Assembly (NCBI RefSeq): GCF_003386095.1
Contig: NZ_QREG01000007.1
Span: 124,001-188,000, forward strand
DNA length: 64,000 nucleotides
Direction: 5' to 3'
Source: Marinoscillum furvescens DSM 4134
GTDB lineage: Bacteria; Bacteroidota; Bacteroidia; Cytophagales; Cyclobacteriaceae
In this document: piece after piece, positions 17,710-51,746 of the stretch
Layout: each line of letters starts with the position of its first letter
Numbering within the stretch: position 1 is the stretch's first letter
Made by a program: the position numbers and the translations under genes
The notes under the pieces: model-generated
The model's database searches: none
Told to the model about the DNA's origin: nothing
Seen by the model: only the letters and a program-made list of their open reading frames with translations

Positions 17710-17898
17710 TGCATTGAGGCGGACAATACCTGCGTTCAGGCGAAAGGTTTCTGCGTTCACCGGGATGATAGTTGCGTTGAGGCGGAAGGTAGTCGCGTTC
17801 ATGTGGTGGATAGTTGCGTTGTGGCGGAAGGTTTCTGCGTTGTCCGGGATGACACATGCGTTGGGATGGGTAATGCCTGTGCTCAGGCGGAAGGTTCC
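17710..17898. repeat. Array of nine degenerate 21-nt tandem repeats (array 1)
   Basis: Nine consecutive units of exactly 21 nt start at 17710, 17731, 17752, 17773, 17794, 17815, 17836, 17857 and 17878, with no indels. Most begin TGCGTT and many continue with a GGCGGAAGGT core. There is a higher-order pattern: the pair 17731-17772 matches the pair 17815-17856 at 34 of 42 positions, so the array grew partly by duplicating larger blocks. All units are diverged, which indicates age. Because 21 nt is seven codons, several frames stay open across the array, producing Cys- or Arg/Pro-rich repeat peptides that I regard as artefacts. It lies beside tRNA-Ser remnants. Confidence 0.9.
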
Positions 17899-48830: not shown

Positions 48831-48992
48831 GATCGGAAATTTTTCGGTTAACCATTTGAAAATCAAAAATGTAACCTACATGTAAGGGATAGAAGTGAAA
48901 ATATTCCAAAACATTTCCTTTTTGCAATCGTTTGCAATTTGTATAATTGTACGGACGATGTTCGTCTGTGTGATTCACTAAATACACTGCGT

Positions 48993-49313
48993 ATGGTTTT
49001 TACAAATATTGACAAAAAAACGATGCAGACACTGTGTACTTTGGTCAAGTATGCGGGGCCAGTGAATGCAAACAAAGATGAAATAGTCCATGTAGGTCAG
49101 GAGCTCGGGGTGCCCAAAGAGGACACGCTGGAGCTGCTCAACGAATGGGAAGAAGTGGACACGGTGAAGTTTACGACTGAAGAGGACAAAAAACGCTTCA
49201 TCCAATCTTGTTTTCCATTTATGACCAAGGATTATCACCCTGATCAGTCTGAGCGAAAACTCTACAACCATGTAGTGAGTAATCTCGGGCTGAAGACCAG
49301 TTCAATCAATTAA
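48993..49313 (+). CDS. Hypothetical small protein, possibly TerB-like
   Basis: The ATG at 48993 (MVFTNIDKKTMQTL) gives 106 residues; the open frame upstream starts in AT-rich promoter-like sequence. It is helical and charged, with KDEIVHVGQELGVPKEDTLELL resembling TerB-type helical bundle proteins. No motif allows a function. It has a strong terminator 25 bp behind it and is divergent from the methyltransferase gene, so it is a single-gene unit. Confidence 0.7.
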   Translation: MVFTNIDKKTMQTLCTLVKYAGPVNANKDEIVHVGQELGVPKEDTLELLNEWEEVDTVKFTTEEDKKRFIQSCFPFMTKDYHPDQSERKLYNHVVSNLGLKTSSIN

Positions 49314-49415: not shown

Positions 49416-49850
49416 TTATGCTCGCAGTTCGTACAGCTCCGCAGTAGTGTAAATATCTCGAAACCCTTTTGTTCTTAATCCATTGATCAACTTTTTGTCA
49501 CCTGTCCAGATGGATGCTTCTAAACCGATGGCAGTGGCGACAAATGGTGTGTCATCTTCATCGACATCAAATGCTAATTCATAAGCACGTTTCCAATGAA
49601 TCTCAGAAATTGCAACCATTGAAATCAAGTCTATATTCTTTAGCACCTGATAAATCGAAACGTCGATTTTTTCCTCTGACATTTTAGTCAATGACCGAAG
49701 CTTGGATTTGTATTTTGTCAGCTCATCAATGATGTACTCCGACGAATAGAATTCAAACTGTTCCTCAGAATTAAAAAGTAGTTCGCCTATGAGTCCATTT
49801 GAGTTTAAGATTGCACTGAATACAATGTTTGTATCTAAAACGACCTTCAT
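49416..49850 (-). CDS. PIN-domain toxin (VapC-like ribonuclease)
   Basis: A 144-residue PIN domain protein. Acidic catalytic residues occur at the family positions: Asp6 in VLDTNI, Glu43 in IIDELTKY, then Asp in DEDDTPFVATA and Asp in WTGDKKL. This is the type annotated as toxin component, PIN family (COG1569-like). Such proteins cleave RNA, often tRNA or rRNA. Its start overlaps the upstream small gene by 4 nt, the usual antitoxin-toxin coupling. Confidence 0.88.
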   Translation of the reverse strand: MKVVLDTNIVFSAILNSNGLIGELLFNSEEQFEFYSSEYIIDELTKYKSKLRSLTKMSEEKIDVSIYQVLKNIDLISMVAISEIHWKRAYELAFDVDEDDTPFVATAIGLEASIWTGDKKLINGLRTKGFRDIYTTAELYELRA

Positions 49851-50056
49851 TTAACAAATCGGTGCTTGTTTTCCTTCCACCAATTTGCTTTAGACTCCTT
49901 AGCCAATTTATCTATTTCGACCTGTTCGGGGTTGCATTCGGCGGTTGCCTCTTTGTACTTCAGATAGTCTATCATACGTTGAAGACCAAGTGTATCAACG
50001 TTGGCAGGGAGCCGAAAAAGGATTTCACTATCTGTTCTCTCAATGTCCATATTCAA
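49847..50056 (-). CDS. Antitoxin-like small protein paired with the PIN toxin
   Basis: A 69-residue protein: a short beta-rich start (IERTDSEILFRLPANV) then an amphipathic, charged helix (LQRMIDYLKYKEATAEC) and a Lys/Trp tail. It lies just upstream of, and overlaps by 4 nt, the PIN toxin gene. The position and size are those of an antitoxin; no DNA-binding fold is obvious, so it may act only by binding the toxin. A start two codons later is possible. Confidence 0.75.
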   Translation of the reverse strand: MNMDIERTDSEILFRLPANVDTLGLQRMIDYLKYKEATAECNPEQVEIDKLAKESKANWWKENKHRFVK

Positions 50057-50200
50057 ATTTACGAATTCCAGCCAAAAAGAGTTCTATGTGGAATACGCTG
50101 GAGTCTGTTCTTTTTTAATAACGTAACTCGATGATCTAGCTATTTTGGCGAGCCTTTGACGATTGTTATGCTTAATCAATTACAAACTGACCCCAATTCA

Positions 50201-50431
50201 GCGGATGAGTGTTTGCCGGATGCGGATGAGTCATTTTCCTATGCGGATGGATGGTTGCCGGAAGCGGTTGGGTCATTTTCCCGTGCGGATGAGTGATTGC
50301 CTAGAGCGGATGAATGATCGCCGAGTGAGGACGGATGATTGTCGAATGCGGATGCGTCTTTGCCGGGGCCGGATGGATGATTGCCGGATGCGGTTGGGTG
50401 TTTGCCGGATGCGGTTTGGCAATTGAGCAAG
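50201..50431. repeat. Array of eleven degenerate 21-nt tandem repeats (array 2)
   Basis: Eleven consecutive 21-nt units begin at 50201 and recur every 21 nt to 50411, with no indel in the array. Nine of the eleven start with GCGG, the usual beginning being GCGGATGRRT; a TTGCCGG segment recurs in the second half. Units 2 and 4 share TCATTTTCC, showing a dimeric higher-order pattern (units 1-2 resemble 3-4). The last unit is the most diverged. It lies between the divergent antitoxin and rarA genes, ending 43 bp before the rarA ATG. Open frames that cross it on both strands reflect the seven-codon period and are not called as genes. Confidence 0.92.
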
Positions 50432-50474
50432 CGAGTCGCTGACATTTGTGCCACTTCCCCCTAACTTTGGCACC

Positions 50475-51746
50475 ATGTTTCAGGATAACTCACCCCTTGC
50501 AGAGCGAATGCGCCCTTCTACCCTCGATGCCCTCATCGGGCAGGAGCACCTGGTAGGGGCCAAAGGAATTTTAAGGCGATCTATAGAGGCTAGCAGAGTG
50601 CCCTCCATGATCCTTTGGGGACCTCCCGGCACTGGCAAGACTACCATGGCCAACATTATTGCCAATCAGGTGAAAATGCCCTTTCACACCCTCAGTGCTA
50701 TCAGCTCTGGAGTGAAAGATGTGCGCGAGGTGATCGGCGGAATTCGTGCCGGCAGCAAGGCCATCCTTTTTATAGATGAGATCCATCGGTTCAACAAGAG
50801 TCAGCAGGATGCCCTTCTGGGGGCTGTGGAGAAAGGCACCATCACGCTGATCGGTGCCACTACGGAAAACCCCAGTTTCGAGGTAAATGCCGCTTTGCTC
50901 TCACGCTGCCAGGTATATACACTCAACCATCTGAGTAAAGACCACCTCCTGAAAATCGTGCAGCAGGCACTGGCTGAGGACGTGGAGATGAAAAAACTTA
51001 CGGTAGAGCTAAAAGAAACAGAAGCGCTTTTTAACCTCTCCGGTGGTGATGCTCGCAAGCTGCTCAATCTTTTTGAGCTGGTGGTAAAAAGCGATGAAGC
51101 GCAGGAACAAATCGTACTCACCGACGAAAAGGTCATTGCCGTAGCTCAGCGTAAAACAGTGCTCTATGACAAGCAGGGTGAGATGCACTACGACATCATA
51201 TCTGCCTTTATCAAATCCATACGCGGTAGTGATCCCAATGCGGCGGTTTACTACCTCGCACGCATGATTGAGGGGGGCGAGGATGTGAAGTTTATCGCCC
51301 GGCGGCTAGTGATCCTGGCTTCCGAAGATATCGGCAATGCCAACCCCACCGCGCTGGTGATGGCTACTACCACCTTTCAGGCGGTAAATGTGATCGGCTA
51401 TCCCGAGTCGCGTATCATCCTCTCGCAGTGTGTGACCTATCTGGCGTCCTCTCCAAAAAGCAATGCCAGCTACATGGCCATCAACCAGGCCCAGCGGCTG
51501 GTTTCCCAAACGGGCGATCTGCCTGTACCCATGCCCATACGCAATGCACCTACTAAGCTCATGAAGGATCAGGGCTATGGCAAAGGCTACAAATATGCCC
51601 ACGACTATCCCGGCAGCTTTGCGCCAATGGAGTTTCTTCCCGATGAAATCAAGGAAACAAAATTTTATGACCCAGGTAAAAACCCACGAGAAGAAGAGCT
51701 AAGAAAATTTTTGCGGAATCGCTGGAAAGAAAAGTACGGTTACTAA
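50475..51746 (+). CDS. rarA: Replication-associated recombination protein A (RarA/MgsA/WRNIP1 family AAA ATPase)
   Basis: A 423-residue AAA+ protein starting [14 protein letters not shown]; an in-frame ATG 27 bases upstream adds residues lying next to the repeat array and is not favoured. Walker A is [13 protein letters not shown], Walker B is [17 protein letters not shown], sensor 1 is [13 protein letters not shown], and [10 protein letters not shown] is sensor 2. The C-terminal domain contains [25 protein letters not shown], the MgsA tetramerisation signature. It acts at stalled replication forks. It follows the 21-nt array, so its promoter lies in or beside those repeats. Confidence 0.95.

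Follow-up and report, generated by a model that had tools for sequence, protein, structure and literature searches.

A 21-nt tandem array before rarA in Marinoscillum and its possible relation to the right ends of IS3-family elements

Does a 21-nt tandem array lying just before rarA serve that gene, or does it belong to a wider class of repeats? The array is part of a 64,000-nt stretch of DNA that was analysed as a whole (the window, G000:C7:124001-188000 of a 5.96-Mb Marinoscillum draft genome in 62 contigs). A preliminary description had reported eleven consecutive 21-nt units without indels between divergent antitoxin-like and rarA genes, 43 nt before rarA. The repeat is confirmed by unit alignment and by lag identity relative to shuffles, and its placement by the coordinates (Table 1).

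Two unit types and one period

Identity within the window array, which we call type A, is 0.652 at lag 21 and 0.688 at lag 42. No lag from 5 to 63 gave more than 0.426 in any of 1000 dinucleotide shuffles. Tandem Repeats Finder returned periods of 21, 42 and 63. The eleventh unit (50411-50431) is degenerate, and the alternation of TTGCCGGAT and TCATTTTCC units described earlier holds for units 1-4 and then stops. A second array with the same period in the window, type B, is equally real (identity 0.583 at lag 21, reached in 0 of 1000 shuffles). The antitoxin-like ORF, whose start is 144 nt from the type A array, has an 85% identical relative in G004 (L170), 136 nt from the left end of an insertion sequence (IS).

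Table 1 Features of the window and the basis on which each was assigned
Feature	Coordinates	Strand	Basis
Type A 21-nt array, 11 units, consensus GCGGATGggTgaTTGcCgggt	50201..50431	+	Unit alignment, Tandem Repeats Finder, lag identity
Type B 21-nt array, 9 units, unit about TGCGTTGAGGCGGAAGGTAGT	17710..17898	+	Six sister loci in genome
PIN-domain toxin-like ORF, PF10130	49416..49850	-	ORF call and Pfam
Antitoxin-like ORF, 69 aa, without Pfam match	49847..50056	-	ORF call, Pfam search
rarA (MgsA_C / AAA)	50475..51746	+	Start as conserved in five relatives

A genome-wide count of copies found four more type A arrays, on contigs C2, C33, C27 and C41 (75-78% identical), and six more type B loci. 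With the C2 array as query, 3 of 39 relatives were matched at 67-69%, namely the window genome itself, M. pacificum (G001, two places) and G003 (one place). The possibility that the two window arrays are the only ones, with none in relatives, therefore fails, because type A-like arrays also match two other genomes of the genus. In a sample of 98 genomes of the family, which did not include G001, G003 or G004, the window array was found in two, the window genome and another with a weak 56-nt match.

The idea of a repeat family thus stands in part. It is supported by sister arrays of both units, by the share of called arrays with a period of 21, 42, 63 or 41 and by the matches in two other genomes of the genus. 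The two window arrays share the 21-nt period, and their unit sequences are not alike beyond chance after correction. When the consensus units of types A to F were compared with rotation and on both strands, none of the 15 pairs was alike beyond chance after correction. The best were A-B (13 of 21 positions, nominal p 0.014) and D-F (p 0.027). A common origin of the six types was rejected, as they are no more alike than shuffles after correction.

Tandem arrays were called in 1.23 Mb of the window genome. Twelve of the 23 have a period of 21, 42, 63 or 41, and the open frames covering them are 0-187 aa long. Among the remaining 11, of other periods, 10 lie in open frames of at least 178 aa and one (period 54) does not. 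The 0.79 Mb scanned in M. pacificum contain 12 arrays: three without a long frame (two of 41 nt, one of 15 nt), three 42/63-nt stretches within a frame of ~900 aa, and six of other periods. None was called in 0.12 Mb of G005. The 41-nt arrays (G000:C3:316100-316330, G000:C1:357190-357340, G001:C22:139873 and G001:C29:190748) include at least one that alternates 20 and 21 nt. Several type B loci (L015, L016, L018 and L024) contain in-register 21-nt GC palindromes, for example TGCCTGCCTCGCCGGCAGGCG.

Conservation within the type A unit is uneven. Based on 54 units from five arrays, one of which runs into the anchor described below, positions 1-7, 10, 13-15 and 17 are the most uniform (>=85%), and positions 8-9, 11-12, 16 and 18-21 vary (p about 1e-38). 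This pattern suggests that something may read the array every two helical turns.

Arrays at the right ends of IS3-family elements

Two of the type A arrays begin at a common sequence near contig ends, and a search with this sequence gave 17 matches in the window genome. At these junctions, 27 nt (CCTGTCAAGTAATTTTAGGACGGGTCC, the anchor) are followed directly or within ~10 nt by 21-nt arrays of differing sequence. In the window genome the anchor precedes unit types A, B, C, D, E, F and H, that is, at least seven. It corresponds to the right terminal inverted repeat of IS3-family elements, and the IS left ends bear its inverted form, TCCTGAAATAGGTTGACA. A full copy of about 1.4 kb in G003 (L168) has the inverted anchor at its left end and IS3 orfA/orfB in between; its OrfB matches the NCBIfam IS3 model at 240 bits (cut-off 160) and Pfam rve. 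Only IS ends are assembled in the window genome, with no complete copy. Its OrfA (L220) matches weakly (IS3 21 bits, HTH_Tnp_1 19 bits, both below cut-off), and the OrfA of G004 has no NCBIfam match.

A strict anchor pattern, which the window genome's own variant does not fit, matched 2 of the 98 family genomes. A pattern scan of a contig collection found the anchor six times in M. pacificum and once in a Bacteroidetes MAG, where a terminator-like hairpin and no array comes next; this end was left out of the counts below. Anchors or array relics also lie beside terminator-like hairpins at L057, L059 and C1:202887, hinting that these IS may settle behind genes.

Over the first 200 nt outside each IS end, we took the highest identity that any 63-nt window reached at lag 20, 21, 41 or 42 and set the cut at 0.55. 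Among random windows (20,000, drawn from 1.16 Mb of the window genome), 0.46% pass. By this automatic score, a 20-21-nt array faces 22 of 28 right ends and 2 of 21 left ends (Fisher p = 1.6e-6). The right ends that pass are 15/17 in the window genome (13, plus two with variant letters), 4/6 in M. pacificum, 3/4 in G004 and 0/1 in G003. The two misses in the window genome are L051, where a short type B array is seen by eye, and L055, with 95 nt remaining. In L066, L069 and L073 of the relatives, all of which pass, the array starts 40-80 nt from the right end. The left ends that pass are 1/19 in relatives (L166, abutting a type A-like array) and 1/2 in the window genome (L221, ~45 nt from its array). 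L166 was itself found through its array, as were C27 and C41. Two rows were dropped, one for a right end (L040, position 391) that precedes another anchor by 41 nt and one for an additional end in L072. An array in G003 (L034) has a variant anchor missed by the pattern. Based on the relatives alone (G001, G003 and G004), right and left ends pass at 7/11 versus 1/19 (p = 0.0011), and based on M. pacificum alone at 4/6 versus 1/9 (p = 0.09). The only complete IS copy seen, L168, has no array at its right end.

For types A to E, the sequence leading up to the arrays (the leader) agrees over ~146-220 bp, right up to where the array begins, and the 27 nt themselves also precede types F and H. Farther upstream the leaders diverge, with another leader family, R, among them. 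Leaders of the same unit type are hardly more alike than leaders of different types (identity 0.901 versus 0.889, permutation p = 0.086); the two are uncoupled. Two type C loci have leader and unit order in common, so that leader and array have travelled as one on at least one occasion. No array was seen to transpose. Neither a conserved tail nor a second inverted repeat was found for the unit of anchor and array, and in the window genome the right flanks have nearly nothing in common. A hairpin, TTGTTGGAGACAACTCCAACAA, is present beyond the distal array end in three species (L047, L058 and L034).

One IS copy interrupts an R leader; 14 nt separate it from the anchor and array that follow. This copy has CCA in both flanks (L220 and L004), and the two joined match the uninterrupted L053 at 245 of 260 positions. 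In M. pacificum, mutually different arrays face right ends that are identical over 112-127 nt, so the IS there is not tied to one array. From both cases it follows that anchors and arrays already in place are also among the sites next to which IS copies insert. IS911, a member of the IS3 family, inserts beside its own inverted repeat, where no tandem array is known to be involved, and the insertion at L220/L004 resembles this in lying beside a sequence like the element's own end. L072 is probably a further insertion of this kind.

We consider it somewhat more probable than its alternatives together (about 0.55) that the arrays are minisatellites which IS3-derived elements carry, or which have docked onto such elements, with a two-turn period and not a sequence as their common trait. 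A mobile-element class of minisatellites is supported. The arrays would form a non-coding, genus-level class with a period of roughly two helical turns (20-21 nt, often 41-42 nt as dimers), many of them on one side only of the 27-nt right terminal inverted repeat. The elements carrying them would be non-autonomous, and IS3 copies would re-insert next to such an anchor with its array. Copies may spread by transposition or duplication, and array length may change by slippage or unequal exchange. The anchor could also be lost, as we think happened to the window copy.

Both window arrays are without an anchor. At the type A array, a search for a relic gave 13 of 27 positions, with null levels of 14 (95%) and 16 (99%). 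Elsewhere, relics persist as GGACCC, with which the C33 array ends, and as about 18 nt of the terminal repeat at C1:202887, followed by the terminator-like hairpin. At the opposite array end, the lead-in before GCGG is similar in the window, C33, C27 and C41 (AATTCA, AATTCA, AAATCA and AAACCA). The window copy appears to have lost its anchor on the rarA side. No anchor was detected at the two 41-nt arrays of the window genome (C3:316100-316330 and C1:357190-357340).

The same ends could possibly be read the other way round, although we give this less weight: the arrays would be host repeats older than the element, and IS3 copies would target array edges or array-linked anchors, right end first, much as certain IS favour REP sequences. 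The identical M. pacificum right ends facing different arrays fit such targeting, as do the left ends at L166 and L221 and the uncoupling of leader from unit type. However, insertion within an array predicts units on both sides, yet left ends pass far less often than right ends. The two type C loci that share leader and unit order also speak against it, as does the lack of a common sequence to recognise among the unit types.

A further reading we regard as doubtful: the spacing of two helical turns would be inherited and the sequence free, with a turn-counting process or protein building or keeping unrelated units at IS3 right ends. If this is true, the 22-23- and 41-nt minisatellites of Porphyromonas gingivalis would be another case.

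That the arrays are ordinary neutral minisatellites grown by slippage, with an incidental IS association, is improbable. Anchor-free arrays do exist, both window arrays among them, and the site at rarA is not conserved in relatives. Nevertheless, right ends face an array at a rate far exceeding the background, one period is common to unrelated units, and variation within the type A unit is concentrated at certain positions.

Neighbouring genes, reading frames and other repeat classes

The gene rarA was found in all six genomes of the genus, and its ATG at 50475 is the start conserved in relatives. None of the five relatives has an array before it: over the 1500 nt upstream, the lag measure is 0.43-0.46 in the relatives versus 0.78 in the window genome. 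The order in three relatives (L147, L149 and L150) is a homologue of ORF 48939-49313 (by tblastx), an ORF of ~300 aa on the opposite strand, and rarA. At the corresponding place the window genome has the PIN ORF, the antitoxin-like ORF and the array.

A role at rarA, the direction taken by the preliminary description, is not borne out by these relatives, and an association with gene starts fares no better. Based on crude ORF calls, the distal gene points toward the leader-linked array in 12 of the 13 cases with a neighbour (p = 0.0017); three further leader-linked arrays had no gene in view, and the window copy departs from the pattern. The array does sit between two gene starts, close to rarA, as might an element controlling this gene or the toxin-antitoxin pair. 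It is nevertheless unlikely to control rarA, which lacks it in every relative, and since the sister arrays adjoin other genes we consider a control role for either locus highly improbable. If the mobile-element reading is right, it also cautions against taking such arrays for operators of the neighbouring gene.

A coding repeat of seven residues, which the lack of indels and three open reading frames through the window array would allow, is barely credible given that some arrays have a period of 41, which is not a multiple of three, and that the variable unit positions are not spaced like third codon positions.

Several other classes were considered. The window arrays fold no better than shuffles (z-scores 1.0, 2.4, -0.1 and 0.3), which speaks against RNA structure and against REP or BIME elements, although some type B units are palindromes. 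One type C strand folds at z -3.6 and its other strand at -0.5. Rfam gave no match in 49800-50500. A CRISPR array was rejected: there are no unique spacers, and growth at the leader end was not seen in two related type C arrays, which are alike next to the leader and diverge at greater distance from it. With regard to iterons, Pfam identified no initiator among eight window genes near the array and the plasmid collection held no similar DNA; plasmid and phage collections gave no match to the array.

Comparison with known minisatellites

The closest known system is BrickBuilt of P. gingivalis, characterised in PMC4596501 as a 23-nt minisatellite without spacers, with a leader and a tail, in an IS5-type MITE of about 19 copies. 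Like BrickBuilt, the present arrays are spacer-free intergenic minisatellites in Bacteroidota that adjoin a leader and IS inverted repeats, and their units are imperfect, with conserved and variable positions (PMC4596501). A conserved leader ending at the array is present at anchor-linked arrays and absent at the window array. A conserved tail with inverted repeats at both ends was not found, nor was a single unit sequence. The inverted repeats of BrickBuilt are of IS5 type, with one unit sequence and a tail, whereas the present arrays have an IS3-type right repeat, at least seven units and no tail that we could find; its period is 23 nt, in contrast to 20-21 or 41-42 nt here (PMC4596501). The IS family, the lack of a detected tail and the unrelated units behind one anchor set the present class apart from BrickBuilt. 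Searches of an open-access library showed no description of such an IS3-anchored class of 21-nt arrays among the matches listed.

The same source mentions 41- and 22-nt repeats in P. gingivalis, and its account of MITE464/PgRS describes 41-nt tandem repeats in a MITE, with no sequence in common with those of BrickBuilt (PMC4596501). By description only, MITE464/PgRS resembles the 41-nt arrays of Marinoscillum and differs in having flanks that are themselves repetitive (PMC4596501). IS occur preferentially at intergenic REP sequences (PMC1525189); REP sequences are palindromic with one sequence per genome family, whereas the present arrays are tandem, largely non-palindromic and of many sequences.

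Should carriage by or docking onto IS3-derived elements prove right, what looked like a promoter repeat would belong to a class of mobile elements defined by its period and an IS anchor. What makes the class interesting is that the period is kept and the sequence is not. It would offer a clean system in which to ask why lengths near 21, 23 or 41 nt recur among the minisatellites of Bacteroidota and whether a protein reads these repeats, and also whether IS3 elements dock at sites of anchor plus array. In the 3' non-coding stretch of the IS (about 80-390 of L004), AGGATTA and AGGAC are repeated at loose intervals, which looks like a set of several putative weak binding sites.
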